This document shows, piece by piece, positions 8,047 through 37,403 of a stretch of 58,702 nt of DNA; within the stretch, counting starts at the first letter, position 1, and each line of letters opens with the position of its first letter. The position numbers were made by a program, and so were the translations under genes. Origin of the DNA: an uncultured Lachnospiraceae bacterium (GTDB lineage: Bacteria > Bacillota > Clostridia > Lachnospirales > Lachnospiraceae); contig CACZJD010000004.1 in assembly GCA_902781325.1 (NCBI GenBank), forward strand, positions 1-58,702, given 5' to 3'. Below the pieces are notes generated by a model. That model did no database searches and was not told the DNA's origin. It saw only the letters and a list, made by a program, of their open reading frames with translations.

Positions 8047-8179
8047 GGATGATCCCCTCTCTTTTTAAGAAAACACTGTCAGGTTACTCTCTTTTAAAAA
8101 ACAACTATCGTCTATTATATCTTATCCGCACCTGCATAGGAAATGTTTTTTATCACTGTTTTGCCGATAGTTATTGTAA

Positions 8180-8208
8180 TTGCCCAAAACCGCATTTAAT
8201 GCTACCAT
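8180..8208 (+). promoter_or_regulatory. Candidate sigma-A promoter for the DUF815 ATPase gene
   Basis: TTGCCC and TACCAT are separated by 17 bp, about 40 nt upstream of the start codon. Both boxes are only moderate matches, so this is tentative. Confidence 0.35.
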
Positions 8209-8250
8209 TGACGGGAAAAGAAATTCCGAAAGTTTACAGGAGAATAAACC

Positions 8251-11556: not shown

Positions 11557-12534
11557 ATGGACGGACAGATGTCAAATGAAAAGTTGATCAACGAGAGGAT
11601 CAGGAGGATCACTGACAGCATCCTTGAGGATTACAAGAACGGAAGAGACATTGACAAGATGGATGTTTTCAGCCAGCCCGACAGCGACGCGGTGACAGAC
11701 ATCGTCAACAAACTTCTGAACATCCTTTTCCCCGGCTACTACAGGGAAAAGAATTACAGAAGCTACAACGACAACAGCAGGATCAGCATACTGATCGAGG
11801 ACGTAGTCTATAACCTCACCAAGCAGATCGCGATCGCGCTCCGTTTCAGGGAGGAGTACGCGCAGTCGGAGGAGTCAGAGATCAGGGATATGTCCGAAGA
11901 GATCGCCATTTCCTTTATAAGCCGGATCCCTGCCATCAGGGAACTGGTGGATACCGATATGGAAGCTTTCTACCAGGGCGATCCCGCAGCCTACAATAAG
12001 GAAGAGATCGTGCTCTGCTATCCCGGGCTGCTGGCCAGTACTGTGAACAGACTGGCCCACGAGCTGTTTCTTCTGAAGGTGCCGCTGATCCCCCGGATGA
12101 TGACGGAGTACGCGCACTCCCGCACCGGCATTGACATCCATCCGGGCGCGACGATCGGCAGATATTTTTTCATGGATCACGGAACCGGCATCGTTGTGGG
12201 CGAGACATCCGTCATCGGAGAACATGTCAAAATATACCAGGGAGTCACGATCGGCGCGCTCTCCACAAAGGGAGGGCAGAGCCTGCGCGGCGCGAAAAGA
12301 CACCCCACGATCGAGGATGACGTCACGATCTACGCCGGCGCGTCCATACTGGGGGGCGAGACGGTGATCGGCAAAGGTTCGGTCATCGGATCAAACGTAT
12401 TCATCACGAGCAGCGTCAAGCCCGGCACCAGAATGAGTGTCAAGACCCAGGAACTGGTGATCAGACACAGGGAAGAGATCGAGGGACCCAGGGAGACCAA
12501 GCCGGAGGGCACAAAGCCCGAGAACTGGTATTGA
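11557..12534 (+). CDS. cysE: Serine O-acetyltransferase
   Basis: This enzyme makes O-acetyl-L-serine from serine and acetyl-CoA, the first step of cysteine synthesis. The C-terminal half is a left-handed beta-helix of hexapeptide repeats. It begins at GIDIHPGATIG, carries the catalytic histidine in FMDHGTGIVVGE, and continues through IYQGVTIGALS and ILGGETVIGKGSVIGSNVF. The N-terminal about 170 residues are helical and longer than in the short Bacillus enzyme, like the longer form seen in anaerobes. The start is uncertain. The ATG at 11557 has AAAGGA immediately before it, and the ATG at 11569 (MSNEKLINERI) has that site at a longer distance. The next genes, galT and larE, may be co-transcribed. 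Confidence 0.92.
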   Translation: MDGQMSNEKLINERIRRITDSILEDYKNGRDIDKMDVFSQPDSDAVTDIVNKLLNILFPGYYREKNYRSYNDNSRISILIEDVVYNLTKQIAIALRFREEYAQSEESEIRDMSEEIAISFISRIPAIRELVDTDMEAFYQGDPAAYNKEEIVLCYPGLLASTVNRLAHELFLLKVPLIPRMMTEYAHSRTGIDIHPGATIGRYFFMDHGTGIVVGETSVIGEHVKIYQGVTIGALSTKGGQSLRGAKRHPTIEDDVTIYAGASILGGETVIGKGSVIGSNVFITSSVKPGTRMSVKTQELVIRHREEIEGPRETKPEGTKPENWY

Positions 12535-12535
12535 A

Positions 12536-12549
12536 CCGCCTGAAGGCGG
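12536..12549 (+). terminator. Weak hairpin between cysE and galT
   Basis: A 5-bp GC-only stem (ccgcc, tgaa loop, ggcgg) lies directly after the cysE stop codon, with a short TTTT seven nt later. It may be a weak terminator or an mRNA-end stabiliser. Confidence 0.3.
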
Positions 12550-12603
12550 CACTGTTTTGATGCGGGAGCGGTTTCCGGCAGAGATAATTCAGGAGGGAAG
12601 AAG

Positions 12604-14142
12604 ATGGAGAAGATTTACGGAGCGGTAAGAGATCTGACTGCATATGCGCTCGCGACAGAACTGATTGCTGAGGAAGATGTGATCTATACAGTCAATTCTC
12701 TCATAGGCGCGCTCGGGATCGACGATTATCCCGGGGACAGGGAGGAGATCATCGGGGAGGCAGCGGCCCTCGACAGGAATAAGATCGCGGACGGAACACT
12801 TCTGGAAGGAATTCTGGCGGTGATCCTTGATCATGCGTCCGGTAAAGGGATGACAGACGGCGCGTCCGTGGTCATGAGAGATCTCTTCGATACGAAGATC
12901 ATGGGCATTCTGACCCCCAGACCGAGTGAAGTGATCGCGAAGTTCCGCGGTATTTACAAGGACGATCCGGTCAAAGCGACTGACTGGTACTACGACTTCT
13001 CCCGCAATACGGATTATATTAGAAGATACAGGATCTCCAAAGACAGAAGGTGGAAGGCGCAGACAGAGTACGGAGAACTCGACATCACCATCAACCTTTC
13101 CAAGCCTGAGAAAGATCCCAAGGCGATCGCCGCGGCCAGAAACGCCGCGCAGAGCAGTTATCCCAAGTGCCAGCTGTGCATTGAGAACGAGGGATATTAC
13201 GGCAGAGTGAATCATCCGGCCAGAGAGAATCACCGGATTATTCCGATCACCATCCAGGGAAATCCCTGGGGATTCCAGTATTCCCCTTATGTCTACTACA
13301 ACGAGCACTGCATCGTGTTCAACTCCCGCCACATTCCCATGGCGATCAACCACGATACATTCTGCAAGCTTTTTGACTTTATTAAGGCATTCCCGCACTA
13401 CTTCCTGGGATCCAACGCGGACCTGCCCATCGTGGGAGGGTCGATCCTGAGCCATGATCACTTCCAGGGCGGCCATTATGACTTCGCTATGGCGAATGCG
13501 CCCGTGGAGCGCTCCTTCACGGTTAAGGGATTTGAGGACATCTCCAGCGGGATCGTGAAGTGGCCGATGTCCTGCATCCGCCTCTCCGGTCCGGATACGG
13601 ACCGCATCATCGCACTCGCCGACCATATCCTGGAAGCATGGCGCGGATATACGGATGAGGACGCTTTCATCTATGCGTTTACAGAGGAAACGCCGCACAA
13701 CACGATCACCCCGATCGCGCGCAAGCGCGGCGGACTCTTCGAAATGGATCTTGTCCTGCGCAACAACATTACTACGGACGAGAATCCGCTGGGCGTCTAT
13801 CACCCTCACGCGGAACTTCATCATATCAAAAAAGAGAATATCGGGCTGATCGAAGTCATGGGCATGGCGATTCTTCCCGCGAGACTCCTCGGCGAAATGG
13901 CAGACCTGAAGAAGGCGATCCTGGAAGGGGAAGATTTCCGGAAAAATCCCGTACTGGAAAAACACGCGGACTGGGCGGAAGAATTCATGAGCCGCTATGA
14001 GAAGATCGACGAGAGCAATATCGACGTGATCATACAGAAGGAGATCGGAGATGTGTTCCGCCGCGTCCTCGAAGATGCCGGCGTGTACAAGAGAACCCCC
14101 GAGGGTCAGAAAGCTTTCGACCGGTTTGTGGAGAGTTTATGA
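12604..14142 (+). CDS. galT: UDP-glucose--hexose-1-phosphate uridylyltransferase (GalT, type II)
   Basis: This is the second enzyme of the Leloir pathway; it swaps UMP between UDP-glucose and galactose-1-phosphate. The 512-aa length and the long N-terminal section fit the Firmicutes-type GalT family, not the 350-aa E. coli type. Visible features are CQLCIENEGYYGR, NEHCIVFNSRHIPM and the HIT-like catalytic region GGSILSHDHFQGGHYDF with its H-D-H-F-Q core. The start follows AGGAGGGAAGAAG. Neither galK nor galE is nearby. The stop codon overlaps the larE start (ATGA), so the two are translationally coupled. Confidence 0.94.
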   Translation: MEKIYGAVRDLTAYALATELIAEEDVIYTVNSLIGALGIDDYPGDREEIIGEAAALDRNKIADGTLLEGILAVILDHASGKGMTDGASVVMRDLFDTKIMGILTPRPSEVIAKFRGIYKDDPVKATDWYYDFSRNTDYIRRYRISKDRRWKAQTEYGELDITINLSKPEKDPKAIAAARNAAQSSYPKCQLCIENEGYYGRVNHPARENHRIIPITIQGNPWGFQYSPYVYYNEHCIVFNSRHIPMAINHDTFCKLFDFIKAFPHYFLGSNADLPIVGGSILSHDHFQGGHYDFAMANAPVERSFTVKGFEDISSGIVKWPMSCIRLSGPDTDRIIALADHILEAWRGYTDEDAFIYAFTEETPHNTITPIARKRGGLFEMDLVLRNNITTDENPLGVYHPHAELHHIKKENIGLIEVMGMAILPARLLGEMADLKKAILEGEDFRKNPVLEKHADWAEEFMSRYEKIDESNIDVIIQKEIGDVFRRVLEDAGVYKRTPEGQKAFDRFVESL

Positions 14143-14957
14143 GAAAAGAACTGAGCGATAAATACTCGAATCTATGTGCCTCGCTGCGCGGGGAGAGAAA
14201 ACTTGCTGTGGCTTTTTCGGCAGGTGTCGATTCGACGCTCCTGCTCCGGGCGGCAGTGAACGCGCTCGGAAATGAGAATGTGCTCGCGGTCACGGCGCTG
14301 TCCGCGTCCTTCCCGGAGAGGGAGGCCGCTGAAGCGGACGAATTTACGCGGAAGATCGGTGTGCGCAGGATCACAGTCGGGGTGGATCAGCTTTCCATTC
14401 CGGGCTTTCGGGAGAATCCCGCGGACAGATGCTATCTCTGCAAAAAAGTGTTGTTTACGCGGATGATGGAAGCAGCGCGGGAGCAGGGATTTGCGGTTAT
14501 GGCTGAGGGGTCGAATGTAGATGACCTGTCTGACTACCGGCCGGGCCTTAAAGCGATAAAAGAACTTGGCGTATTGAGCCCTCTGAGAGAAGCGGGACTT
14601 ACCAAGGCGGAGATCAGGGAACTCTCTTCAGAACTGGGACTGCCCACCTGGAATAAGCCTTCCTTTGCATGCCTTGCCACGAGATTTGTGTATGGGGAGA
14701 TTATTTCAGATGAAAAGCTCAGGAGGGTGGAACTGGGAGAGAGGCTCCTGCAGGATCTCGGATTTAAGCAGTTCAGAGTGAGGATCCACGGAGAAAAGGG
14801 GCGTCTTGCCAGGATCGAAGTACTGCCGGGGGATTTTGAGAAGCTTTTGAACAGAAGGCTGGAGATCGCCGCGGAATTTCGAAAGGCCGGATTTGACTAT
14901 GTGGCGATGGACCTGGAAGGGTACAGGACCGGAAGTATGAATGAAGTGCTCAGTTGA
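14139..14957 (+). CDS. larE: ATP-dependent sulfur transferase LarE (PP-loop)
   Basis: LarE inserts sulfur into the pyridinium precursor of the nickel-pincer nucleotide cofactor, which was first found in lactate racemase. The 272-aa protein carries the PP-loop SAGVDS at residues 27-32 for ATP activation. It has three cysteines in suggestive places: C98 and C101 in DRCYLC, and C178 in FACLATR. C178 fits the position of the sacrificial cysteine of Lactiplantibacillus LarE. A CxxC plus this third cysteine is the arrangement reported for LarE forms that hold an iron-sulfur cluster. No larA, larB or larC is in the window. The gene overlaps galT by 4 nt and is followed by a strong terminator. Confidence 0.88.
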   Translation: MRKELSDKYSNLCASLRGERKLAVAFSAGVDSTLLLRAAVNALGNENVLAVTALSASFPEREAAEADEFTRKIGVRRITVGVDQLSIPGFRENPADRCYLCKKVLFTRMMEAAREQGFAVMAEGSNVDDLSDYRPGLKAIKELGVLSPLREAGLTKAEIRELSSELGLPTWNKPSFACLATRFVYGEIISDEKLRRVELGERLLQDLGFKQFRVRIHGEKGRLARIEVLPGDFEKLLNRRLEIAAEFRKAGFDYVAMDLEGYRTGSMNEVLS

Positions 14958-14964
14958 AGCGTAA

Positions 14965-14996
14965 AGCCGCTGCCGTCATCAGGCAGCGGCTTTTTT
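14965..14996. terminator. Intrinsic terminator after larE, possibly serving both strands
   Basis: A 10-bp stem (agccgctgcc pairing with ggcagcggct, 7-nt loop) is followed by six T on the plus strand. On the minus strand, after rqcH, the T-run is short, so that use is less certain. Confidence 0.8.
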
Positions 14997-15006
14997 ACAT
15001 GCTGTT

Positions 15007-16839
15007 TTAATCTGAGACTTCCTGAAGGCCGGAGATATCGGCTCTCGCGAGAATGGAATAGTTGGTGTAGTAGACTACAAATCCCGGTTTGGCTCCGCCG
15101 GGCTTTTTTACATTGCGGCGGAGGAGGTAATCGATTTCGACCTTTCCCTGCCGGCGGCCGGCGGAGTACCAGGCAGCCAGGGAGGCAGCTTCCTCGAAAG
15201 CTCTGTCCGGAATATCGTCCATGGAGCGTCCTCCTGAGCGGAGGATCACATGGGATCCGGGTATGTCGTTGGCGTGCATCCAGATGTCGCCGGGCTCCGC
15301 GAAGTGGAAGGTGAGCTGATCGTTCTGAATGTTGTTCTTACCGACATAGATGTCGTAACCGTCGCTGCTGATGTAGTGCAGAGGTTTGCTGACGGGAGTG
15401 CGGGCACGGCCTTTTTTGCCGGACTTGTCGAAGCCGGGGCGCTTTTTGCCTCCGCCTGCGTGCCGCCGGACCAGTCCGCTGTCCTCGAGTTCCTGCCTGA
15501 TCTGGGCGAGATCGCCTTCGCCCGTGGCAAGATCCAAAGAGGTGCGGATACTCTCCAAATGGTCGATCTCCGATTTGACTTCGGTGGTCAGCGCGGTGAG
15601 AGCTTCATAGGTCCGCTTGAGTTTGGTATATCTGTCAAAATATTTCTTCGCGTTCTGGTTCGGCGTCAGTGTGGGATCCAGCGGGATCCGGACCTTTTCA
15701 CCGGTATAGTAGTTGTCTACTTCGCAGGTCTTTACGCCTTCGGGGATCGAATAGGCGTATGCGTTGAGCAGTTCTCCATAGATCCTGTACTTGTCCCGCT
15801 TTTCGGTATCCCGGATCTGCTTGCACTGCAGGTCGTATTTGTGAATGTCGCGCTCCAGGATCGTCTGGACGACATGGCGAAGGTCCGCTGATTTCTGGCG
15901 GATCCTCGTCACCTCGTTCTTCTGGTCATAGAAGGTCTCCAGAAGTTCAGACATGGAATCGAAGCGGACTTCCTCGTAGTTTGAGCCGGAATCAGTGAAG
16001 ACGCGCATTGAAACTGCTGAATAGCCCGCGGGAGCGCCGCGTCGGCCGCCCTCTTCCTTCTTATAATAAATGGAGGGCGCAAAGATCCCTTCTGATACGC
16101 TCTGCATAAGGGCACGGAATTCTTTCCACAGGGAAGTGCGGTCCTCCTCTGTCATCGAGGAAGCACTCCGGTCATTGGTGATCGCCGCTCTGTGGCACAG
16201 TTCTTCAGCCATCTGTGTGGAGAGACCCGTGTAAGCGGAGAGCAGGAGTTTGGCAGGCGGGACCTGCTGACTGCGCATAAGGGCATCGAAGCCTTCCGCG
16301 GTCTCTTCGAGAGGGTTCTTCTTATTTCTGGTGTCCGGGACAAAATAGGGTCTGCCCGGAAGTACTTCTCTGACAGAACTGACCAGTGAAGAGATATGTT
16401 TGATGCTGTCGACGATCTGTTCCTGATCATTAAGAAAGATGATATTGCTGTGCTTGCCCATCAGCTCAATGACGAGTGTGTGTCGGCAGAGATCGCCCAT
16501 TTCGTCGAGGTGTTCGACCTCAAAGCGCAGCACGCGCTCGAGTCCCGGCTGGGTGACTGAGAGGATCCTGCCGTTCTGCAGGTGCTTGCGGAGCAGCATG
16601 CAGAAGGAGGGCGCCTGAAGCGGTGCCTGTCTGTTTTTTGCCGTGAAATAGGCCAGAGGAAGGGAGGCGTCGGCAGAGAGATAGAGCCTGCACTGTCCTC
16701 CTCCCCGCTCGGCGGAAGGCTTTAATGTGAGTACCAGCTCATCGCGGTCCGTCTGCGCTATTTTATATATTCTCGCGCCTGTCAGTCTGTCGGAGAACTC
16801 CTTGCGGAGACAGGCGGTTGTGATGCCGTCAAATGCCAT
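15007..16839 (-). CDS. rqcH: Rqc2 homolog RqcH (NFACT protein)
   Basis: RqcH binds split 50S subunits that still carry a peptidyl-tRNA and adds C-terminal alanine tails, marking stalled products for degradation. The 610-aa protein has the NFACT-N domain (residues 1 to about 220), then helix-hairpin-helix and coiled-coil sections (about 220-440). The NFACT-R domain at the C-terminus is marked by DIWMHANDIPGSHVIL. Older annotations call it a fibronectin-binding protein. At the position where Bacillus RqcH has the Asp-Arg pair, this one appears to have Glu101-Arg102, a conservative change that I aligned by eye only. The start follows AAAGGAAA. It is divergent from the yicC operon. Confidence 0.93.
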   Translation of the reverse strand: MAFDGITTACLRKEFSDRLTGARIYKIAQTDRDELVLTLKPSAERGGGQCRLYLSADASLPLAYFTAKNRQAPLQAPSFCMLLRKHLQNGRILSVTQPGLERVLRFEVEHLDEMGDLCRHTLVIELMGKHSNIIFLNDQEQIVDSIKHISSLVSSVREVLPGRPYFVPDTRNKKNPLEETAEGFDALMRSQQVPPAKLLLSAYTGLSTQMAEELCHRAAITNDRSASSMTEEDRTSLWKEFRALMQSVSEGIFAPSIYYKKEEGGRRGAPAGYSAVSMRVFTDSGSNYEEVRFDSMSELLETFYDQKNEVTRIRQKSADLRHVVQTILERDIHKYDLQCKQIRDTEKRDKYRIYGELLNAYAYSIPEGVKTCEVDNYYTGEKVRIPLDPTLTPNQNAKKYFDRYTKLKRTYEALTALTTEVKSEIDHLESIRTSLDLATGEGDLAQIRQELEDSGLVRRHAGGGKKRPGFDKSGKKGRARTPVSKPLHYISSDGYDIYVGKNNIQNDQLTFHFAEPGDIWMHANDIPGSHVILRSGGRSMDDIPDRAFEEAASLAAWYSAGRRQGKVEIDYLLRRNVKKPGGAKPGFVVYYTNYSILARADISGLQEVSD

Positions 16840-27847: not shown

Positions 27848-27904
27848 AGAAGCGGAGAGCAGGGGGAACTGTCAAAGTACAGCTTGCTAAATTTGTGGCG
27901 GTAC

Positions 27905-27933
27905 TTCACGATTGCGCATAAAAGTAGTAAAAT
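27905..27933 (+). promoter_or_regulatory. Candidate promoter for gpmI
   Basis: TTCACG and TAAAAT are separated by 17 bp, with the -10 ending 46 nt before the gpmI start. The -35 is a four-of-six match. Confidence 0.4.
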
Positions 27934-27979
27934 ACGAAGAAAGAGCAACTGCTATTTATATTGGAATGAGGAGAATCAC

Positions 27980-29524
27980 ATGAAACAAAAGCCAGTAGTT
28001 TTAATGATCCTGGATGGCTATGGCCTTAACGACAATCCCGAGGCAAACGCTGTTGCCATGGCAAACACTCCGGTCGTCAGCGGGCTTATGGAGAGTGTTC
28101 CTTTTGTAAAGGGATATGCCAGTGGTATGGCGGTAGGACTTCCGGACGGGCAGATGGGCAATTCCGAGGTCGGCCACATGAACATGGGCGCCGGCAGGAT
28201 CGTTTATCAGGAACTTACAAGAATCACCAAGGAGATCCAGGACGGAGTGTTTTTTGAGAATCCTGAGATCCTCGAAGCGATCAACAACTGCAAGGTGAAG
28301 AATTCCGATCTGCACATTTACGGACTTCTGTCCGACGGCGGCGTTCACAGCCACATCACGCATCTGTACGCTATTCTTGAGATGTGCAAGAAGAACGGAC
28401 TTGACAGAGTATATGTCGACTGCTTCCTCGACGGAAGAGATACTCCTCCTCAGAGCGGCGCCGATTTTATCGCACAGCTTGAGGCGAAGGAGAAGGAGAT
28501 CGGCGTAGGTCAGATCGCGATGATCAGCGGACGCTACTACGCGATGGACAGAGATAACAACTATGACCGCGTCAAGATCGCGTACGACGCTCTGACAAAG
28601 GGCGAAGGTCTCAAGGCGGAGAGCGCCCATGAGGCGATCACAGCTTCCTATGAGAGAGGCGAGTACGATGAGTTTGTAAAGCCCACCGTGATCTGCAAGG
28701 ACGGCAAGCCCCTCACGACGATCAAGGACGGCGACTCCATCATCTTCTACAACTTCCGTCCCGACAGAGCGAGAGAGATCACGCACTGCTTCTGCGACAA
28801 CGAGTTTGACTATTTTGACAGAGGACCCAGGAAGAAAGTCACATACGTCTGCTTCAAGGACTATGATCCGGACATCCCGAACAAGGAGGTCGCTTTCAAG
28901 AAGGTCGACGTCACCAATACTTTCGGCGAGTGGCTTGCTGCCAAGGGAATGAAGCAGGCGAGGATCGCGGAGACCGAGAAGTATGCTCACGTAACATTCT
29001 TCTTTAACGGCGGTGTGGAAGTTCCCAACGAGGGAGAGGACAGAATTCTGGTCCGTTCCCCCAAGGATGTTCCCACTTATGACCTCAAGCCCGAGATGAG
29101 CGCTTACGGCGTTCTCGACAAACTGGTAGAGGCGATCCATTCCAAGAAGTATGACGTGATCGTCATCAACTTCGCGAACCCTGACATGGTCGGCCACACG
29201 GGTGTGCTCCCGGCAGCGATCAAGGCCGTCGAAGTTGTCGACGAGTGCGTAGGAAAGGCTCTCGAGGCGATCAAGGAAGAGGACGGCGTTCTCTTCATCT
29301 GCGCGGACCACGGCAACTGCGAGCAGATGGTCAACTATGAGACCGGCGCACCCCACACTGCGCACACCACGAACCCGGTTCCCTTTATCCTGGCGAACTA
29401 TCACGAGAACGTCAAGCTCAGAGAGGGCGGCGTTCTGGCGGACATCGTTCCCACTCTGATCGACATCATGGGATACGAGCAGCCTAAGGAAATGACCGGA
29501 AAAACCCTTCTCATCCGCGAATAA
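27980..29524 (+). CDS. gpmI: 2,3-bisphosphoglycerate-independent phosphoglycerate mutase
   Basis: This glycolytic enzyme interconverts 3- and 2-phosphoglycerate using two Mn2+ ions. The 514-aa protein has the alkaline-phosphatase-type metal site. LMILDGYGLND gives the first Asp, QMGNSEVGHMNMG carries the phosphorylated Ser, and CADHGNCEQM with PHTAHTTNPVP gives late Asp and His ligands. Length and motifs are standard. The start at 27980 follows GAGGAGAATCAC. A larger frame upstream adds 32 residues that do not fit the family. The rest of glycolysis is not clustered here. Confidence 0.96.
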   Translation: MKQKPVVLMILDGYGLNDNPEANAVAMANTPVVSGLMESVPFVKGYASGMAVGLPDGQMGNSEVGHMNMGAGRIVYQELTRITKEIQDGVFFENPEILEAINNCKVKNSDLHIYGLLSDGGVHSHITHLYAILEMCKKNGLDRVYVDCFLDGRDTPPQSGADFIAQLEAKEKEIGVGQIAMISGRYYAMDRDNNYDRVKIAYDALTKGEGLKAESAHEAITASYERGEYDEFVKPTVICKDGKPLTTIKDGDSIIFYNFRPDRAREITHCFCDNEFDYFDRGPRKKVTYVCFKDYDPDIPNKEVAFKKVDVTNTFGEWLAAKGMKQARIAETEKYAHVTFFFNGGVEVPNEGEDRILVRSPKDVPTYDLKPEMSAYGVLDKLVEAIHSKKYDVIVINFANPDMVGHTGVLPAAIKAVEVVDECVGKALEAIKEEDGVLFICADHGNCEQMVNYETGAPHTAHTTNPVPFILANYHENVKLREGGVLADIVPTLIDIMGYEQPKEMTGKTLLIRE

Positions 29525-29568
29525 TACGCTTTTGAGAAGAAAATTCACCCAATTTTCACAATATATAG

Positions 29569-29603
29569 GCAGGCAGGAACGAAATTTCCTGCCTGCTTTT
29601 GTT
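29569..29603 (+). terminator. Intrinsic terminator after gpmI
   Basis: An 11-bp stem (gcaggcaggaa pairing with ttcctgcctgc) is followed by TTTTGTT. It separates gpmI from the ABC transporter operon. Confidence 0.8.
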
Positions 29604-29645: not shown

Positions 29646-29674
29646 GAAAGGGACACTTTGGAGAGTAACATTTG

Positions 29675-30628
29675 ATGAGTGAACATGCAGGAAAAAAGTT
29701 AGACCGATATCTGAAAGACAATGCGTCCCGGGCTGCTGAAGAAAGGAAGTACGGGTCGGCGCGTCTGAGAAGATGGAGGGGACGGGCTGTCTCCTGGCTG
29801 TATCTTGCCCCGAGTCTGATCGGCGTGGGGCTGTTCTTTGTGCTCCCCTTTGGAGTGGTCATTTACTATTCCATGATCAACAATCCCGTCCAGCACGAAT
29901 TTGTAGGGCTTAACAACTTTATCCGCACGTGGCAGAACAATGCTTTCTCGCTTGCGGCGCGCAACACGCTGCTCTTCTCGATGATCGCTGTGCCGCTGGC
30001 GGTAGTGCTGTCTCTGTGGCTCGCGGTGATCATGGAGAGCCGCATCCCGTTTAAGAGCACCTTCCGGACTTTTTTCCTCAGCCCCATGATGGTGCCGATC
30101 GCGTCCGTGATCCTGGTATGGCAGGTCCTGTTCGACTACAACGGACTGGTCAATGTATTTCTGACCCGCGCCGGTATTGACAGGATCGACTGGCTCAAAT
30201 CGGATCTGGCGCCGATCGTTATCATACTGCTGTTTCTGTGGAAGAACCTGGGTTACAATATGATCCTGTTCATGTCGGGACTCTCAAGTATACCCAGAGA
30301 CCAGATCGAGGTGGCAAGACTTGAGAGCGCGACGGAAGGCCAGATCTTCTGGAAGATCAAGATAAGATACCTCTCTTCGACGATCATGTTCGTCATAATC
30401 ATGTCATTGATCAATTCCTTTAAGGTATTTAGGGAGGTCTACCTCCTCACAGGGGATTATCCCTACAATTCTCTGTACATGATGCAGCATTTTATGAATA
30501 ACACATTTCAGTCTCTGGATTATCAGAAACTGTCCGCCGCCGCGATCATCATGGCTGTGTTTATGATGATCGTGATCGGAATTCTGCTTTTGGCGGAGGA
30601 CCGGTTCGGAAAGGATCTTGAGCAGTAG
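29675..30628 (+). CDS. Carbohydrate ABC transporter permease (MalF/UgpA type)
   Basis: This 317-aa integral membrane subunit of a sugar-type ABC importer has six hydrophobic segments starting at SWLYLAPSLIGVGLFFVLPF. The cytoplasmic EAA loop, which contacts the ATPase, is degenerate but recognisable: IEVARLESATEGQIFWKIKI. The first 45 residues are charged and cytoplasmic. The start at 29675 has GGAGAG in front. The partner permease follows 4 nt later. No ATPase gene is in the operon, so a shared MsmK/MsmX-type ATPase elsewhere is likely. The substrate is unknown. Confidence 0.92.
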   Translation: MSEHAGKKLDRYLKDNASRAAEERKYGSARLRRWRGRAVSWLYLAPSLIGVGLFFVLPFGVVIYYSMINNPVQHEFVGLNNFIRTWQNNAFSLAARNTLLFSMIAVPLAVVLSLWLAVIMESRIPFKSTFRTFFLSPMMVPIASVILVWQVLFDYNGLVNVFLTRAGIDRIDWLKSDLAPIVIILLFLWKNLGYNMILFMSGLSSIPRDQIEVARLESATEGQIFWKIKIRYLSSTIMFVIIMSLINSFKVFREVYLLTGDYPYNSLYMMQHFMNNTFQSLDYQKLSAAAIIMAVFMMIVIGILLLAEDRFGKDLEQ

Positions 30629-30632
30629 GAAT

Positions 30633-31679
30633 ATGGGATTATTTAAGAAGAAAAAGAACGAGATCTCAGTAGAGACCGCGAATAAGGAAACGGTGCCGGC
30701 CCCAAAAGCGGAACCGGTCCAAAAAGAGAAACAGGCCAAAAAAGCGAAAACGGCTAAAAAACCGGAGTACAGGGAGTACGACGCGATCAGCGACCGCAGA
30801 AAGGCGGAGAGAAGACAGACAGTGAGAAGGACCATCGCCGCGGTCTTCTTCGCGTTTATGTTTCTGACGCCCACGGTGCTCACCTTCACGAACAGCTTTA
30901 TGACCGCTTCAGAGATCAGCGCCAATTACGGCTCGATCTTCGCTCAGAATACTTCCGGCGGCAAGGTGTTCGTCTCGGAGGTGGTGAACCTGAAATTCAT
31001 CCCGGATATGGTGACTTTCAGCCAGTATGCCACTGTGCTCTTCAAGAGCCCGGAATACCTGATGAAATTCTGGAATTCCGTGATCTACGTCGTGCCGATC
31101 GTGATCTTTCAGCTCTTTGTCGCGTCCCTTGCTTCTTTCGGATTCGCAAGGTACCGCGGGAAGGTGAAACAGCTGATCTTTTTCCTTTACATAGTACTCA
31201 TGCTGATGCCCTATCAGGTCACACTGGTGCCCAACTATATGGTCACATCGGAACTGGGGATCGTAGGGACCAGATGGGCGATCTGGCTTCCGGGTATATT
31301 TTCTCCCTTTGCCGTTTATATGCTCACTAAGTATATGAGAAGGATACCGTATTCTCTCTACGAGGCAGCATCCATAGACGGAGCCGGGGAGTGGCAGATC
31401 TTCACACAGATCTGTATGCCGATCTGCAGGGGAGGCCTTGCTTCGATCGCGATCCTGATCTTTATCGATTACTGGAACATGGTCGAACAGCCGCTGATCC
31501 TTCTGGACAATGAGGAGTTGTATCCTCTCTCCGTATTTTTATCGAGGATCAATGCGGGCGAGATCTCTCTGGCTTTTGCCGTAGCTGTCATATATATGGT
31601 CCTGCCGATGCTTTTCTTCCTGTATGGCGAGGAGTATCTGGTGGAAGGAATTCTGTACCAGGGCGGCATCAAGGAATGA
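30633..31679 (+). CDS. Carbohydrate ABC transporter permease (MalG/UgpE type)
   Basis: This 348-aa partner permease has six membrane segments and the canonical EAA loop YEAASIDGAGEWQIFTQICMPI. The N-terminus has an unusual cytoplasmic extension of about 65 residues, with many Lys, Glu and Ala (short KKAKTAKK-type tracts), before the first helix at about residue 70. The segment between helix one and two is also longer than usual and faces outward (FAQNTSGGKVFVSEV). It starts at ATG 30633 after AGGA. The order F-type then G-type permease is standard, but the next genes are not. Confidence 0.92.
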   Translation: MGLFKKKKNEISVETANKETVPAPKAEPVQKEKQAKKAKTAKKPEYREYDAISDRRKAERRQTVRRTIAAVFFAFMFLTPTVLTFTNSFMTASEISANYGSIFAQNTSGGKVFVSEVVNLKFIPDMVTFSQYATVLFKSPEYLMKFWNSVIYVVPIVIFQLFVASLASFGFARYRGKVKQLIFFLYIVLMLMPYQVTLVPNYMVTSELGIVGTRWAIWLPGIFSPFAVYMLTKYMRRIPYSLYEAASIDGAGEWQIFTQICMPICRGGLASIAILIFIDYWNMVEQPLILLDNEELYPLSVFLSRINAGEISLAFAVAVIYMVLPMLFFLYGEEYLVEGILYQGGIKE

Positions 31680-31715
31680 TGTCAGGGCCCGTCACTTTAA
31701 AGGAGCAGACAGGTT

Positions 31716-33125
31716 ATGTACGAAATCGAAGATAAGGAAAACAGAGAACGGTATCAGATGCAGCGCTCAGCCGCACGAAAGGACTGGATCAAGAATCTGA
31801 CCATTGTCTTTTTGTCAATCATGCTCATTCTGACCTTTTTCTCCAACACGATCATGAACTACTCGCTTCCGCAGGTGGCGACCCGCTACGTGCAGGAGGG
31901 AAGCATCACGCCCAAAGTGAGAGGTTCGGGCGCCGCGGAGGTGGATGATCCCTATAGCGTAAAAGCGCCCAACGGCAGGGTGATCGCCGCTGTTAATGTC
32001 AAGGCGGGCGATGAGGTCAAGAAAGACGATGTGATCTTTGAACTGCAGGATTCGGAATCCGATGAACTCAAGGAGGCCAGGAAGGAATACGAGGAGGCAA
32101 AGTCTAATTTCCAGAAAGCCCTCTTCAGCGGAGACCTGACCAGCGACGCGGTGGAAAGGATCAGAAACGGCGAGTATCTGACGGATGACGAGATGCAGGA
32201 GATCCTCGATGAGGTAAACTCCGACTACGAAGACGCGCTCTATGAAGATACGGAAGCGGGTCTTGCTGTGGAGCGGCTCAACGGCACCACCAACACTGCC
32301 AGTATGGGAGCAGATGAGGAAGCTGTCAAACAGGCCGAGAGGAATGCCAAAAAGCTTGCTGAGGCGCAGGCCTATAAAGCGGAGACAGAGGCGGAACTGA
32401 CAAGGGCGACCAACAACAGGGACACTACTGTAAAGAGTATTCAGGCGGAACTTGAGCTTAAGGCGATCCAGAAGACAATGGAAGATGCCCAGGCTAAAGT
32501 GGAGAGCCTTGAAAAAGCGGAGAAGAGCGCGACAGTCAAGGCGCCGATCGACGGAAAGATCGTTTCCGTCACCTATAACGCCGGTGACACCACATCTTCG
32601 GACACGGTAGGCGCTGTCATACAGCCCGAAGGGAAAGGAATGACGGTCAGTTTCACCTGCACCAAGGAACAGGCGCAGATGCTCAAGACCGGCATGGAAG
32701 CCAAACCCCAGAATGAATGGGCTTATTCGGACTTTAAAGCGACACTGGTGAGCATAACCGCGGACGCATCGGACAGCTCCGGCGGCAAAATATTGAAGTT
32801 TGAGATCCAGAGCCCCGATGTGGAGGCCGGAGACACCATACAGCTCAGCGTGGGAGAAAACACGAAGACCTATGACCTGACGGTTCCCAATAACGCTGTG
32901 AGAGAGGACAATAACGGCAAGTTTATCCTGATCGTCAGCAGTAAAGAGAGCCCGCTCGGGAACAGATACATTGCTACCAGGGTGGATGTGCAGGTCCTCG
33001 AGAGCGATGACCTTCTGACAGCTATCTCAGGACCCCTGAGCGGCTATGAATATGTGATCACGACTACCACCAAGCCGGTGGCCGCCGGCATGCAGGTGAG
33101 ACTTGCGGAGGATTTGCAGCAGTGA
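31716..33125 (+). CDS. HlyD-like membrane fusion (adaptor) protein
   Basis: The 469-aa protein has one N-terminal membrane helix (about residues 27-47, NLTIVFLSIMLILTFFSN). A lipoyl/barrel-sandwich half (SVKAPNGRVIAAVNVKAGDEVKKDDVIFEL) and a long acidic coiled coil (about residues 110-265) follow. The second lipoyl half (KSATVKAPIDGKIVSVTYNAGD) and a beta-barrel end come last. This is the architecture of adaptors that work with exporters. Finding it directly after two importer permeases is unexpected. The gene lies 36 nt after the second permease, and its stop overlaps the next start (GTGA), so it belongs to the operon. Confidence 0.88.
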   Translation: MYEIEDKENRERYQMQRSAARKDWIKNLTIVFLSIMLILTFFSNTIMNYSLPQVATRYVQEGSITPKVRGSGAAEVDDPYSVKAPNGRVIAAVNVKAGDEVKKDDVIFELQDSESDELKEARKEYEEAKSNFQKALFSGDLTSDAVERIRNGEYLTDDEMQEILDEVNSDYEDALYEDTEAGLAVERLNGTTNTASMGADEEAVKQAERNAKKLAEAQAYKAETEAELTRATNNRDTTVKSIQAELELKAIQKTMEDAQAKVESLEKAEKSATVKAPIDGKIVSVTYNAGDTTSSDTVGAVIQPEGKGMTVSFTCTKEQAQMLKTGMEAKPQNEWAYSDFKATLVSITADASDSSGGKILKFEIQSPDVEAGDTIQLSVGENTKTYDLTVPNNAVREDNNGKFILIVSSKESPLGNRYIATRVDVQVLESDDLLTAISGPLSGYEYVITTTTKPVAAGMQVRLAEDLQQ

Positions 33126-34741
33126 CCGCTAAAAGGAAAAAACGCGGGATAACTCCCTGGAAAAAGACCGCTCTGAAAGTCTGCGTCCTGTGGCTGATCG
33201 CGGCAGCCGGAATCCACGGATTCCGGGAATTAAAGGCGCTGGGATTTGAAGACCAGAGGGAGGCGTCCCGATGGGGCGCTCCGGAAAGCTGCGCGCAGGT
33301 GAGCGCCTTTCTTCCGCAGGAAGAAGCGCTGATGGAAGAGACGATCAAGGACCTGGAGTACAAGATCAATACGGCGCTCGCCCAGGACTCGATCAAAAAG
33401 ACTTCGGAGGGAAAAGACTCGAAATTATGGCAGGACTGCTACAGCGGGATCGGGAAACTGACTCTGGCGGCAGGAAGCAAGACAGTTACTGTTGAAGCTG
33501 TGGGGACCGGGGGCGCGTTCTTCACCTTCCATCCGCTCAAACTGTCAGCGGGCTCTTATTATCTGTCCGATTCCGTGATGAAAGATGAGATCCTTCTCGA
33601 CGAAGAGACTGCCTGGAAGCTCTTCGGCTCCTTTGACGTAGAGGGAAGAACAGTCCGGGTCCAGGATATGCATCTTCGCATTTCCGGTGTTTATAGAAAA
33701 GAGCAGGGCAGCCTGTATACAGAAGGAGGCCTGTCCGATTACGTGGTCTTTGTCCAGTATAAGACGCTGCTTGGTTACGGCGGTACAGGGAACGGCTCCG
33801 ACGGCGGCTCACAGATAACGCCGGGGACAGCGTCGAGTCCGGCAGGCTGCGCTGTCTTCGCGAAGGCTGCGGAGTCACCGGCAGATACGAAGACTGAGGA
33901 AGAGCAGTCTGATGATAGGCCCGCAGACAGCGAAGACGAACAGAGTGATTCCGGAACAGGTCAGGGGTCAGGTGACGAGCAGGGAACTTCCGGAGGAAGT
34001 CAGGGTTCGTCAGCCGCGCAGGAAACCGCCCCCGACGACACGCAGAACATGGAAAATGTCGGAACCGCCAACACCCACTACAAAGATACGGGAATGATCA
34101 CGGCTTATGAGATCGTGATGCCCGATCCGGTCGAGGGGTATGCGGCATCAGCTGTGAAAAAGGCATTTGGAGAGGAATCCGGGGTGATCGTGGTGGACAA
34201 CACTAACCGCTACAAGATCCCCAGTCTCGTGGAAGATATACGGCAGTTTGCACTTCTGGGGATGCGCACCGGAGCGGTCAGGTATCCGTATTGGGAGAAT
34301 GTGGCTCTTGGATGGGAGACGATCTTTGCGGCGCTCTTTCTTTTGGAGTGTATTCTGATCGTTTTGACGATCCTTCTGCTGCTGTGGATGCTGATCCACT
34401 GGTACAGGAACAGGAGCTGGACTCTTGCGGGAAGTGTCCGAAATCTGCAGGACAGTGTCTACGAGAGACAGTCCAGAAAGAAATATCCGGAGTATTACAA
34501 AGAGAGAGAACAAGATCCGGACAATGACGCGCCTTCAGGAGAAAAAACTGAAGCACCTCAGGAAAAGGGCCAAGGGTCCGCTGACAGCAGTTCGGAAAAG
34601 GGTATGCTGGAAGACAAGGGACTCGCTCCTTTTGAAACGATCAGGGAGAACAGAAAGGCGGTACAGTATGAAACGAAATACCAGGATGATCAGCGTGGTG
34701 ATGGCGGCAGTGCTGGCTCTGACCACGGCGGCATGCGGTAA
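33122..34741 (+). CDS. Membrane protein with MacB-like extracellular core domain
   Basis: I do not recognise a named family. The 539-aa product has a helix at about residues 15-35, then an outward domain. That domain contains SAGSYYLSDSVMKDEILLDEETAWKLFG, DVEGRTVRVQDMHLRISGVYRKE and other strands like the periplasmic core domain of MacB/FtsX-type proteins. A Ser/Glu/Asp/Gln/Gly-rich, probably disordered stretch (about residues 225-320) interrupts it. A second helix lies at about 398-426, followed by a charged cytoplasmic tail. MacB permeases have four helices, but this has only two, so it is not a working exporter by itself. The start is the GTG at 33122, overlapping the adaptor stop. The end overlaps the next gene by 74 nt. 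Confidence 0.72.
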   Translation: MTAKRKKRGITPWKKTALKVCVLWLIAAAGIHGFRELKALGFEDQREASRWGAPESCAQVSAFLPQEEALMEETIKDLEYKINTALAQDSIKKTSEGKDSKLWQDCYSGIGKLTLAAGSKTVTVEAVGTGGAFFTFHPLKLSAGSYYLSDSVMKDEILLDEETAWKLFGSFDVEGRTVRVQDMHLRISGVYRKEQGSLYTEGGLSDYVVFVQYKTLLGYGGTGNGSDGGSQITPGTASSPAGCAVFAKAAESPADTKTEEEQSDDRPADSEDEQSDSGTGQGSGDEQGTSGGSQGSSAAQETAPDDTQNMENVGTANTHYKDTGMITAYEIVMPDPVEGYAASAVKKAFGEESGVIVVDNTNRYKIPSLVEDIRQFALLGMRTGAVRYPYWENVALGWETIFAALFLLECILIVLTILLLLWMLIHWYRNRSWTLAGSVRNLQDSVYERQSRKKYPEYYKEREQDPDNDAPSGEKTEAPQEKGQGSADSSSEKGMLEDKGLAPFETIRENRKAVQYETKYQDDQRGDGGSAGSDHGGMR

Positions 34742-37364
34742 GGGCGGAAGTGATAAAAAAGAACCTGACGGAGGCACACAGGCCGCCGTGTCCGGGGATT
34801 ATGTCTACAGCGCCCAGCCGGTCGAACTGCAGGACAAGGATGGATCTCTCGCTGATTTTAATATGGAGAACCTTATGTACAAAGACGGCAGGATCTACGC
34901 CGCCGGCTATTCCTACGGATTCTCCGATTCCGGCACTCACGCGCTGGTGAATTTTGCACCGGACGGATCAGATCTGCAGTACAGCCTCCTGATCGGCGGC
35001 GGTACGCAGGATGTACTTGCTATGAACATAGGCTCTGACGGCAATTACTATGTCGCAAAGGTTTCCTATGACAGCGATTCCATCGGTTTTACTTCCGGAG
35101 ACGGGGAGCAGAGCGGCCCCGGAAGCGAAGAAGGTCCTGCGGAAGCAGTGGAAGAAGGACCCGCGGGAGCGGTGGAAGAAGGTCCTGCGGGAGCAGCGCA
35201 GGAAGGCCCCGGCGGAGCAGTGGAAGAAGGCCCGGGCGGAACAGCGCAGGAAGGCCCAGGGGCGCAGGAAGGCCCCGGAGGTATAGTGGAAGAAAGCCCT
35301 GCAGGAGCAGCCGGGGAGGGCCCCGGCGCGCAAGGCGGGGATCAGGTCGTGGAATTCTATACAGAAGGCGGAGATTCTCCCGCCAACGATCCGACACTTC
35401 AGGAGGAGGCAACGGACGGAATTACTTCCCCTGCTGACGAATTTAAGGGTGAAGGGAATGACGCGGAAGAGGAACTGATCGTTTCGGAGGCTGTAGAAGT
35501 CGATCCGGCTTCTGCGGCGCAGAACGGAGAGAGTGTATATGTACTCTCCTGCATCGCGCCTGACGGCCGGGATATCTGGACAGTGCCTGCCCGGATCCCG
35601 GAAAACAGCGAAACGGACTATTTTGTCAACAGTGTCGCTTACAGTAAGGACGGCCTTATTGTGAGTACTTCCCTGGGGCTTGATCTGTACAGCGCAGAGG
35701 ACGGATCTTTTATCAGGACGATCAGTACCGATGACCAGTTAAAGAGTATTACGCCTTATGTGCTCGAGGACGGCACGGTTGTGACTGTCACATACGGAGG
35801 AAACGGCGAGCAGATCACAGTGATCGATATGGAGACGGGAAAAACGGGAGAGAGTTATCCGGTTCCATCTGAAGCGGGGATGTCCTTTGTTTTCCCCGGA
35901 AAGACCTGGCAGCTGTACATGGCAGGCGCAAACGCGATCTACGGAATGAATCTTGACGGCGCCGGCATTGTAAAGATCGTCGACTATGTGGATTCCGACA
36001 TGGATGTCACGTCAGTCACCGGCATTGCGGAGATGGAGGACGGGAAACTTGCGGCTGTCGTCGCGGATCTGACAGGCACTAGCCTTGTGGAGATCCTTTC
36101 CAAAGTAGACCCAGAGGTCGTCGCAAATCGCAAGACGATCACGCTTGGAAGCTATTACCTTGATTATGAGGTCCGCAAACAGGTCTTTGCCTTTAACAAA
36201 ACGAATCAGGATGTCAGGATCAGCATCGTGGACTACTCCCAGTTCGACGGAGAGACAGGAACGGAAGGGCTGACAAAGCTGAATACGGATATCGCGTCAG
36301 GCAGCGCGCCGGACGTACTGGTCCTTTCCGCGGCCATGCCCATCAGCAGTTATATCAGCAAGGGGGTCTTCGAGGACCTGACCCCTTATATGGAAGGCGA
36401 TGAGGAGATCTCCGGCAAAGAGTATCTGACAAATGTGTTTGACACCTTCAAGAACGATGGAAAAACATATGCGGTCATCCCTTCTTTCTACGTAAACACT
36501 GTTGTAGGTAAAACTGAGGATATCGGGGACGGTTCCGGCTTTACGCTGGATTTTGCCGATCAGCTCGCGGCCTCCAAGGGCGTTGCTCCGGGCAGGATGT
36601 TCGGACTTGCCAGCAGGGAAGATATTCTTTATCAGGCAATGGAATTGTGCGGGGATCAGTTTATTGACTGGGAAAGATCCGAGTGTAAGTTCGACTCGCC
36701 TGAGTTTATACGCCTTCTGGAATTCGTCAGCCAGTTCCCTGCCAAAATAGATGAGGCAGCTATGCAGGAAGACACCACGGCGTTCTACAGAAACGGAAAA
36801 GCTCTGTTCGCGAGGGAGTCCCTCGGGACCTTCGACGAGTATGTAAATCTCCGATACGGTTATTTTGGATCGGAGATCACTATGGCAGGGTTCCCGTCCC
36901 AGGTGCCCGGCACCGCGGCGATCGCTCCGCAGCTTGAGATCGCGGTCAACGCCGCTTCTGATCAGAAGGATGCCTGCTGGAGTTTCGTGCGCCGCTTCCT
37001 CCTCGACGACTATCAGAATACCATCGAGATGTACTGGCCGGTCAGTATCAGCGCGCTGGATCAGCTCGCCAACAAGGCGATGGAGCCCATCTACTATACG
37101 GACGAGAACGGACAGAAGGTAGAGGACCACATCATCATGAATATCGGCGGCGAGAATGTGGAGCTGCCGAGGATCTCCGACTCCGAAGTCGACCGGATCT
37201 ATGCTTTCCTCAGAGGACTGAGCAGCAAGGCATATTTTGACAGGAGCGTCGAGAATATCATTGTCGAGGAGGCGGCAGCCTTCTTCGAGGGACAAAAGAG
37301 TGCGAGGGATGTCGCCGGAGTCATCCAGAGCAGAGTCCAGATCTATATCAATGAGAACAGCTGA
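34668..37364 (+). CDS. Large lipoprotein: propeller-like region fused to extracellular solute-binding domain
   Basis: The 898-aa product begins MKRNTRMISVVMAAVLALTTAACGKG, with the lipobox LTTAACG giving a lipidated Cys at about residue 23. Residues about 50-490 contain repeated strands of beta-propeller character (DGSDLQYSLLIGGG, KDGLIVSTSLGLDLYSAEDGSFI, MEDGKLAAVVADLTG). They are interrupted at about 150-225 by a Gly-Pro-Ala-Glu repeat. From about residue 493 (YYLDYEVRKQVFAFNK) a family-1 solute-binding domain follows, with NTDIASGSAPDVLVLS and FARESLGTFDEY. Usual binding proteins are about 430 aa. The ATG at 34668 follows AAAGGCGG; the open frame further upstream lacks a signal peptide. 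It should feed the two permeases. Confidence 0.85.
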   Translation: MKRNTRMISVVMAAVLALTTAACGKGGSDKKEPDGGTQAAVSGDYVYSAQPVELQDKDGSLADFNMENLMYKDGRIYAAGYSYGFSDSGTHALVNFAPDGSDLQYSLLIGGGTQDVLAMNIGSDGNYYVAKVSYDSDSIGFTSGDGEQSGPGSEEGPAEAVEEGPAGAVEEGPAGAAQEGPGGAVEEGPGGTAQEGPGAQEGPGGIVEESPAGAAGEGPGAQGGDQVVEFYTEGGDSPANDPTLQEEATDGITSPADEFKGEGNDAEEELIVSEAVEVDPASAAQNGESVYVLSCIAPDGRDIWTVPARIPENSETDYFVNSVAYSKDGLIVSTSLGLDLYSAEDGSFIRTISTDDQLKSITPYVLEDGTVVTVTYGGNGEQITVIDMETGKTGESYPVPSEAGMSFVFPGKTWQLYMAGANAIYGMNLDGAGIVKIVDYVDSDMDVTSVTGIAEMEDGKLAAVVADLTGTSLVEILSKVDPEVVANRKTITLGSYYLDYEVRKQVFAFNKTNQDVRISIVDYSQFDGETGTEGLTKLNTDIASGSAPDVLVLSAAMPISSYISKGVFEDLTPYMEGDEEISGKEYLTNVFDTFKNDGKTYAVIPSFYVNTVVGKTEDIGDGSGFTLDFADQLAASKGVAPGRMFGLASREDILYQAMELCGDQFIDWERSECKFDSPEFIRLLEFVSQFPAKIDEAAMQEDTTAFYRNGKALFARESLGTFDEYVNLRYGYFGSEITMAGFPSQVPGTAAIAPQLEIAVNAASDQKDACWSFVRRFLLDDYQNTIEMYWPVSISALDQLANKAMEPIYYTDENGQKVEDHIIMNIGGENVELPRISDSEVDRIYAFLRGLSSKAYFDRSVENIIVEEAAAFFEGQKSARDVAGVIQSRVQIYINENS
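35115..35340 (+). repeat. Imperfect 27-30 nt coding repeats (EEGPAGA-type)
   Basis: At least seven degenerate copies of gaagaaggtcctgcggga-like units encode EEGPAGAV, QEGPGGAV and similar peptides inside the solute-binding lipoprotein. The unit length is 9-10 codons. The segment is likely flexible and prone to length change by slippage. Confidence 0.85.
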
Positions 37365-37403
37365 GCCCCGAAGGGCGGCCTAAGAAAGGACAGCATTACA
37401 TAT

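Follow-up and report, generated by a model that had tools for sequence, protein, structure and literature searches.

We describe a cassette that joins the genes of a sugar importer to two genes of exporter families, located at positions 29675-37364 of a 58,702-nucleotide stretch of DNA (the window) from an uncultured Lachnospiraceae bacterium. Our preferred reading, to which we give a probability of roughly 0.55, is that the products form one machine: a CUT1 (maltose-transporter) type oligosaccharide importer with a permanently added MacA/YknX-like adaptor and a shortened, ATPase-free MacB, which would extend toward the wall. Comparison among relatives supports the exporter-type parts as constant partners of the sugar importer, and the conserved gene set suggests an importer reaching out toward the cell wall. 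Among the titles and abstract openings listed from the open-licence literature we found no description of this adaptor and MacB-core pair combined with a sugar importer, and as far as that literature goes the first-pass annotation's choice of it as a candidate for an undescribed system is supported.

The five open reading frames lie on the plus strand in the order P1-P2-ADP-MAC-SBP, and the overlapping one-strand arrangement first reported for them agrees with both the reading frames and their Pfam matches. Between an upstream phosphoglycerate-mutase-like (gpmI-like) gene and P1 is a terminator-like stem-loop of 13 pairs (29567-29598, plus strand), the longest stem among the terminator-like sites listed, although it is a consensus match only and nine such sites occur in the window against 6.9 expected in shuffles. 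P1 (29675-30628, with a TTG start at 29672 also possible) and P2 (30618-31679, alternative start ATG 30633) are CUT1-type permeases in the MalF/UgpA and MalG/UgpE positions. Both carry BPD_transp_1 above the curated Pfam cut-off (3.2e-17 and 2.7e-11), and their closest NCBIfam models, UgpA for P1 (3e-27) and GlcU (2e-25) and UgpE (1.4e-17) for P2, are all matched under the models' own cut-offs. A Pfam scan of the five genes found no ATPase, enzyme or regulator. The absence of these from the operon, as originally claimed, is thus correct for the window; the absence of ATPase and regulator does not extend to all relatives, some of which hold a MalK-type ATPase (family f34) or a two-component regulator (the second subtype described below).

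The adaptor ADP (31716-33125) matches HlyD_3 in Pfam (1.9e-10) and RND_mfp in NCBIfam (1.3e-26, with 93.4 bits slightly below the cut-off of 94.9). Its single transmembrane helix, predicted at residues 28-46, is followed by lipoyl, alpha-hairpin, beta-barrel and membrane-proximal regions whose borders were assigned by eye. The share of the majority residue is 0.77 in the transmembrane helix, 0.69 in the membrane-proximal region and 0.35 in the hairpin region, which is 158-492 residues long (median 266, 27 sequences). In a tree ADP separates from four exporter adaptors (SH-aLRT 99).

MAC (33122-34741) overlaps ADP by GTGA and had been described as a two-helix protein with a MacB-type extracellular core, which is what we find. 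Two helices are predicted (residues 16-34 and 403-421) on either side of a MacB/YknZ-type core with a PYWEN motif, MacB_PCD is matched at 1.8e-9, and in a fold comparison the AlphaFold2 model comes closest to YknZ, in its extracellular domain (5f9q), with E 1.2e-8 and a TM-score of 0.52 normalized by target length. The protein has no TM3 or TM4 and no ATPase. Two helices were counted in 45 of 49 MAC sequences and one in the other four, while three MacB-type neighbours have four. Majority-residue shares are 0.62 around PYWEN, 0.64 in the central core and 0.37 in the helices. According to the accessible text of PMC5985334, the coupling helix of MacB lies between TM2 and TM3 and contacts the ATPase, so that a MAC of the window's type, being without TM3 and TM4, would also be without this contact.

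The gene of the lipoprotein SBP (34668-37364) overlaps the last 74 nt of MAC. We set its start at ATG 34668, which is followed by the lipobox; the listed reading frame is longer and runs from TTG 34425. It has an N-terminal all-beta part, a disordered insert rich in EEGPAG and a C-terminal sugar-binding-protein domain. Of the earlier description as a propeller and solute-binding lipoprotein, the second half stands: SBP_bac_1 is found in the C-terminal half (3.3e-8), the lipobox Cys23 is invariant in 36 aligned sequences, and the structural model matches sugar-binding proteins, the first being CbpC of C. thermocellum (7x0o, 4.2e-20), which we take to serve cellodextrins. The propeller has its sole basis in the roughly 25 strands of model residues 42-480. 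Pfam gave propeller matches of only 0.04 and 0.13, and none of the 50 fold matches listed is a propeller, these being to the sugar-binding half or to fusions with such proteins.

The order P1-P2-ADP-MAC is kept in 42 of the 45 loci of the window's type (subtype I) that were fetched, spread over four families, and the other three are cut by contig ends, so the arrangement is not due to chance. The search first suggested for this gene order was one across a single family, Lachnospiraceae, but the cassette extends to three more. Within the window's family it is patchy, with a strong match in 29 of 299 genomes; 7 of the 36 matched genomes matched no more than weakly and were scored as being without the cassette, and one weak-match locus (L063) holds a MacB-type ATPase and a four-helix MacB. 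In a set of 150 family genomes, 14 have a high-scoring ADP (best match 330-710 bits, the next tier reaching 173), each with a strong MAC, and judging by the numbering among the matches listed these are also all the strong-MAC genomes of the set. Lower-scoring ADP genes lie beside P1 and P2 in 19 of 21 loci, which we call subtype II. The remaining two are cut by a contig end (L147) or belong to an exporter (L155, so called from its MacB-type ATPase; the next protein has 436 residues). These distribution counts omit the context of two class-level hits (G858 and G899) and of weaker phylum-level hits. The first-pass annotation had named adaptor and core genes lying mostly apart from the permeases as the observation that would tell against it, and the opposite is seen in both subtypes. 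Of the five-gene order it proposed, the first four genes are constant, whereas SBP directly adjoins them in only 35 of 45 subtype I loci and is missing from that position in 10. Comparison of the loci thus shows a constant core of four genes, which is inherited as a unit.

The permeases, as their trees show, have diverged together with this unit. For P1 as for P2, the sequences of the two subtypes group together to the exclusion of other CUT1 permeases (SH-aLRT 100 and 99), with subtype I itself supported at only 89 and 88. These values come from quick searches with the subtype I rows thinned to 25 (P1) and 24 (P2), and they are compared with just 11 and 7 CUT1 rows of the ordinary kind, several of them long-branched with false-join warnings. 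The EAA coupling loop of the window's P1 has diverged (LESA...KIRYLSS), and in subtype I as a whole its glycine column is kept in 20 of 45 rows and its proline column in one, the proline being gone from the other 44. This loss tells against our preferred reading, since the coupling of P1 to an ATPase may be weakened or altered. The loop is canonical in P2 of all 45 subtype I rows and in both permeases of subtype II (19 of 19).

The ATPase itself can be placed in some relatives. In family f34 a MalK-type ATPase directly follows MAC in seven of eight loci, and in the remaining locus it lies upstream of SBP in divergent orientation; the two that were scanned are composed of ABC_tran, OB_MalK and TOBE_2. 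Its presence in these operons argues for an importer and not a MacAB exporter. Such an ATPase also follows P2 in two subtype II loci. The genome of the window has three MalK-type ATPases above the cut-off, all away from the cassette, and the DNA fetched for the 37 subtype I loci outside f34 gave none, so that the energy source of these is assumed.

These parts may be assembled into the machine we favor. MAC, without the helices that couple MacB to its own ATPase, would act as a platform in the membrane, its core binding ADP at the membrane-proximal region. ADP would form a ring or tube from the membrane toward the wall, like MacA and like Spr0693, which the accessible text of PMC5768738 describes as a hexameric nanotube rising about 154 Å above the membrane. 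The highly conserved transmembrane helix of ADP would pack against P1 and P2, and the tethered SBP would capture oligosaccharides at or above the ADP collar and pass them to P1-P2, driven inward by a MalK-type ATPase whose gene lies at another place in the genome. By standing on MAC beside the importer, the ADP ring would move oligosaccharide capture outward toward the wall. In a bolder form of this proposal, which we hold only tentatively and consider somewhat less than an even bet, a MacA/MacB exporter chassis was captured, minus its ATPase and two helices, and reversed into a through-wall intake duct, giving a new architectural class of importer in monoderms.

The likeness to known systems is divided. 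MalEFGK and UgpABCE are CUT1 ABC importers, and with this class the cassette shares two BPD_transp_1 permeases, an SBP_bac_1 lipoprotein and, within the operon of some relatives only, a MalK-type ATPase. It differs from them in its two constant exporter-family subunits, the large extra N-terminal all-beta domain of its SBP and the diverged P1 coupling loop. With the MacAB, YknXYZ and Spr0693-0695 exporters it shares an RND_mfp/HlyD-type adaptor and a MacB-core protein encoded side by side, but its operon has importer permeases and no MacB-type ATPase, and the subtype I MAC is without TM3 and TM4.

Hints at what the importer would carry come from neighboring genes and from the enzymes of cassette genomes. 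In family f178, genes for GH94, GH9-CBM3 and GH5 proteins lie at most three genes after MAC in three of four loci scanned (six were fetched). GH94 was found in 21 of the 29 genomes with the cassette and in 113 of the 270 counted as without it (p 0.003); for GH9 the corresponding numbers are 13 and 46 (p 0.001), these p values being from raw genome counts uncorrected for genome size and phylogeny. Neither was found in the window's own genome, which is 82% complete. In the window's family, 70 of 101 flanking proteins gave 123 Pfam families, of which the best 25 are largely housekeeping, and an ABC ATPase domain was present in six of the 70. Ten flanking proteins picked for inspection included GH10 (L060), GH43 (L056) and GH5 (L043), beside one locus each, so no constant enzyme partner is seen in the flanks scanned and we rejected an enzyme-linked polysaccharide locus as a reading for this family. 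A likely cargo, at which these data hint weakly, would be plant-derived beta-gluco-oligosaccharides.

The largely housekeeping flanks also fit a different role, which we think unlikely though it is the alternative that survives best. Here the cassette would be a transporter for cell-wall homeostasis like YtrBCDEF of Bacillus subtilis, importing glycan pieces or muropeptides released from the wall, or else a signal derived from them, and tuning wall synthesis instead of serving nutrition. To our knowledge YtrBCDEF has no CUT1 permeases and no adaptor, and its permeases differ. A VanY-type D-Ala-D-Ala carboxypeptidase encoded between ADP and MAC in one subtype II locus (L153) points in this direction, as does a homologous pair of OmpR-type regulator and histidine kinase in 15 of the 21 loci with a lower-scoring ADP. 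The accessible text of PMC8060467 gives further likeness, since the Ytr transporter is a presumed importer that contains a MacB-core protein, YtrF, and is linked to wall thickness; it also gives YtrBCDEF two ATPases of its own, however, where the window's five genes have none. The match of the SBP model to sugar-binding proteins, CbpC first, and the glycoside hydrolase neighbors in f178 speak for sugar uptake, and a strong match in only 29 of 299 family genomes would be odd for wall housekeeping.

The same kinase pair, together with the altered P1 loop, could also be read as the mark of an extracellular sensor or scaffold, in which ADP, MAC and SBP form a surface complex that reports its state to a two-component system, transport having become secondary or been lost. 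We hold this to be less likely again. Peptide modules of the BceAB/BceRS type have a large extracellular domain and an adjacent two-component system, as subtype II has, but are not known to have an adaptor, CUT1 permeases or an SBP. Antibiotic sensing does occur among MacB-like transporters (accessible text of PMC5985334). Against this, the kinase pair is present in none of the 45 subtype I loci, three of which have an unrelated pair; the coupling loop is canonical in P2 and throughout subtype II; and the f34 operons hold an ATPase.

Much more doubtful is that ADP and MAC work as a separate exporter with a MacB-type ATPase encoded elsewhere and only share the operon of the importer. Both have exporter-family folds, and MacB-type ATPases are found in related genomes, in two of the 45 fetched subtype I stretches close to the core (1.2 kb away in L037, where it comes with a separate adaptor and MacB, and 4.3 kb in L112). 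None adjoins ADP-MAC in the 20 importer loci of subtype II, with a weaker match several kb off in L136 and L137; the profile used for relatives was built from three sequences. The missing helices and coupling helix of the subtype I MAC (the latter as located in the accessible text of PMC5985334), the invariant gene order and the separate permease clade led us to reject an independent MacAB exporter as the main reading. The MAC of subtype II is recognized weakly, which tells against our preferred reading: the subtype I profile gives 21-44 bits in eight loci, one sequence gave MacB_PCD at 7.3e-5, below the cut-off, helix counts range from two to five in eight sequences, and L136 has ADP with no recognizable MAC. 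The eleven MacB sequences from exporters do not form one clade in the tree of MAC (2 changes), so this tree does not demonstrate common descent of MAC in the two subtypes. Chance adjacency or an annotation artefact, for which we found nothing in favor, can be set aside given the conserved order in four families and the second subtype.

In thick-walled bacteria the passage of large oligosaccharides across the peptidoglycan to an importer in the membrane is poorly understood. An importer that is conserved together with a dedicated adaptor and MacB-core protein would provide defined parts with which such uptake can be tested, and would broaden the view of what adaptor proteins do. If the reading as an intake duct is true, adaptor tubes work in uptake and not in efflux alone. 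Since the high-scoring ADP matches and 19 of 21 lower-scoring ones in the 150 genomes lie in sugar-importer cassettes, adaptor and MacB-core genes of this kind should not be read as efflux or drug-resistance genes.

The window is one complete contig from a genome of 82% completeness, whose closest relatives found with names are Lachnospiraceae MAGs. The cassette comprises five closely packed genes on the + strand, lying between a phosphoglycerate-mutase-like gene (27884-29524, named by eye from the sequence) and lepA (from 37404, with a LepA_C match), which follows the SBP gene. Pfam and NCBIfam assign the products as two CUT1-type permeases (P1 and P2), an RND/HlyD-type adaptor (ADP), a MacB-core protein (MAC) and a solute-binding lipoprotein (SBP). 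The most probable start codon of the lipoprotein gene is ATG 34668, as opposed to the TTG further upstream in the listed ORF. A 13-pair terminator-like stem is located 5' of P1. Because the gap from the SBP gene to lepA is only 39 bases (37365-37403) and no + strand terminator-like site is listed in it, lepA may possibly be co-transcribed with the cassette by read-through. The gpmI and lepA flanks and the gene order recur in four named relatives (L001-L004). Within the SBP gene, 24-nt tandem repeats (window 35127-35332) are in frame and code for a segment rich in EEGPAG/EEGPGG, around which about 150 residues of the SBP model have a pLDDT below 50.

The cassette is conserved as a unit. When 299 family genomes were searched with the MAC protein, 36 had a match and 29, including the window's own, a strong one; the other 28 strong family matches and 17 from other families gave the 45 subtype I loci that were fetched. 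The order P1-P2-ADP-MAC is kept in 42 of them, the contig end being reached before the permeases in the remaining three (L038, L047 and L106), and an SBP-type gene directly adjoins this core in 35/45. The adaptor of L117 is read in two frames. Adaptors scoring high in a profile search (at least about 330 bits for the best match) were found in 14/150 family genomes, and all 14 have a strong MAC. Outside the family, strong MAC matches occur in 8/20 genomes of family f34 and, among 245 class members, in three genomes of f176 and six of f178, the latter all of one genus. Among 398 phylum members, full-length matches came only from two f34 and two family genomes, and the remaining matches span mainly the core region.

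A second set of cassettes, subtype II, came from adaptors that scored lower in the 150 family genomes (75 to 173 bits, with a threshold of E 1e-20); their 21 loci were all fetched. The order SBP-P1-P2-ADP-MAC is present in 15 of the 21, one of which, L153, has one inserted gene, a VanY-type D-Ala-D-Ala carboxypeptidase gene (8107-8817) between ADP and MAC. In L142 two regulator genes separate P1-P2-ADP-MAC from the SBP gene, L136 has SBP-P1-P2-ADP with no recognisable MAC, and L147 is cut by a contig end to ADP and MAC. L139 and L158 run consecutively SBP, small protein, ADP, MAC, P1, P2 and MalK-type ATPase; the small gene in these two rearranged cassettes (L139:2484-2999, L158:10187-10822) is lipoprotein-like by eye, with a DUF5666 match under the cut-off. 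L155 carries a MacB-type ATPase and was counted as an exporter. The profile made for subtype I gives subtype II MAC proteins only 21-44 bits, so a separate one was built for subtype II; one of these proteins matches MacB_PCD in Pfam under the cut-off (7.3e-5), and eight sequences have 2-5 predicted TMs. Near 15/21 of the lower-scoring loci lie an OmpR-type regulator and a histidine kinase that are homologous between loci; Pfam confirmed three pairs and BLAST searches with the pair from L148 identified the others (regulator identity 47-58%), the pair of L158 being only remote. This pair was found in 0/45 subtype I loci, three of which have unrelated pairs.

Compared with ordinary CUT1 permeases, which were few and on long branches, the permeases of both subtypes together separate with SH-aLRT 100 (P1) and 99 (P2). 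Subtype II permeases form one clade (97 for P1, 98 for P2), as do those of subtype I with weaker support (89 and 88), and each subtype, represented by 16 rows, is one clade in the ADP (97, 99) and MAC (96, 100) trees. It follows that the association of importer, adaptor and MAC is old and that the permeases specialised along with the cassette.

In f34, a MalK-type ATPase gene lies immediately 3' of MAC in 7/8 loci and divergently, upstream of the SBP gene, in the eighth (L114); two of these ATPases were identified by Pfam and the others by BLAST, profile and position. None was found in the fetched stretches of the 37 non-f34 subtype I loci, and the window's genome has three above the family cut-off, all elsewhere than the cassette. 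The MalK-type ATPases and the SBP indicate that the machine is an importer. MacB-type ATPases are present in 2/45 subtype I stretches (L037 and L112). The EAA coupling loop of P2 is canonical in every subtype I row, and in P1 the conserved proline is replaced in 44/45 rows (by arginine in 34), whereas it is kept in 19/19 subtype II and 17/17 ordinary permease rows, the latter with some duplicates. This contrast points to an altered ATPase contact on the P1 side in subtype I, where coupling may be asymmetric or weakened.

L037 contains, a short distance 3' of its subtype I cassette, a MacAB-type exporter (ATPase, adaptor and four-TM MacB; 12228-15835); in the genome it comes from, G144, subtype II occurs as well (L135). 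In L064 (5296-9487) the gene directly after a MacAB-type exporter encodes a large SBP lipoprotein that belongs to the family found in the cassette (707 bits), and the 18 kb fetched there contain no match to CUT1 permeases. L062, a diverged family locus, has between SBP and P1 an ABC ATPase (14362-15210) of neither clearly MalK nor clearly MacB type.

MAC is laid out as TM1, a MacB/YknZ-type extracellular core, TM2 and a variable tail. Hydropathy predicts two TMs for the window's MAC and for 45/49 subtype I relatives (one for 4/49), compared with four in each of three MacB proteins from other fetched loci. For the whole MAC model pLDDT is 71; it reaches about 90 within the core and drops below 50 in a long insert as well as over much of the tail. 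The model's best fold matches, with modest TM-scores, are YknZ 5f9q (0.52 by target length), MacB and the pneumococcal transporter. A PYWEN motif immediately outside TM2 has invariant P, E and N and an almost invariant W (n=28 sequences). According to PMC5985334, MacB is coupled to its ATPase via a helix between TM2 and TM3, which subtype I MAC, unlike MacB, cannot have. ADP has one TM helix plus adaptor regions, and its mean majority-residue share is highest in that helix (0.77), falling to 0.72 in the stretch that borders the helix on the outside and to 0.69 in the C-terminal region near the membrane. Conservation is lowest in the hairpin (0.35), which spans 158-492 residues in 27 sequences, the longest being in the 789-residue adaptor of L056 (10139-12508). 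PMC5985334 reports that pneumococcal adaptor variants deprived of both cytoplasmic region and TM helix failed to stimulate the MacB ATPase; the membrane partner of ADP here may be P1/P2.

The SBP model finds its top fold match, at E 4.2e-20, in CbpC from Clostridium thermocellum, with the second best at 1.1e-15. Three of the four f178 loci scanned, out of six, have a glycoside hydrolase gene within three genes 3' of MAC (GH94 in L108, GH9-CBM3 in L111, GH5 in L112), and L109 has none in the two genes scanned. Among the 299 family genomes, GH94 is carried by 21/29 with the cassette vs 113/270 without, and GH9 by 13/29 vs 46/270. A beta-glucan cargo is thus plausible, not established; counting against it, neither GH94 nor GH9 was found in the window's genome (82% complete), and no constant enzyme neighbour of the cassette was seen in its family.

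Among the entries listed from the open-licence literature, we found no description of an importer combined with an adaptor and a MacB core; the closest known idea is YtrBCDEF, which is presumed to be an importer and includes a MacB-core protein (PMC8060467). The Gram-positive MacA Spr0693 is a hexameric nanotube whose modelled assembly rises about 154 A above the membrane, similar to the space below the wall (PMC5768738). In the simplest reading, MAC would be a passive base carrying the adaptor ring beside the importer. The ADP ring or its long hairpins would extend toward or into the wall, and the tethered SBP would operate in that zone.
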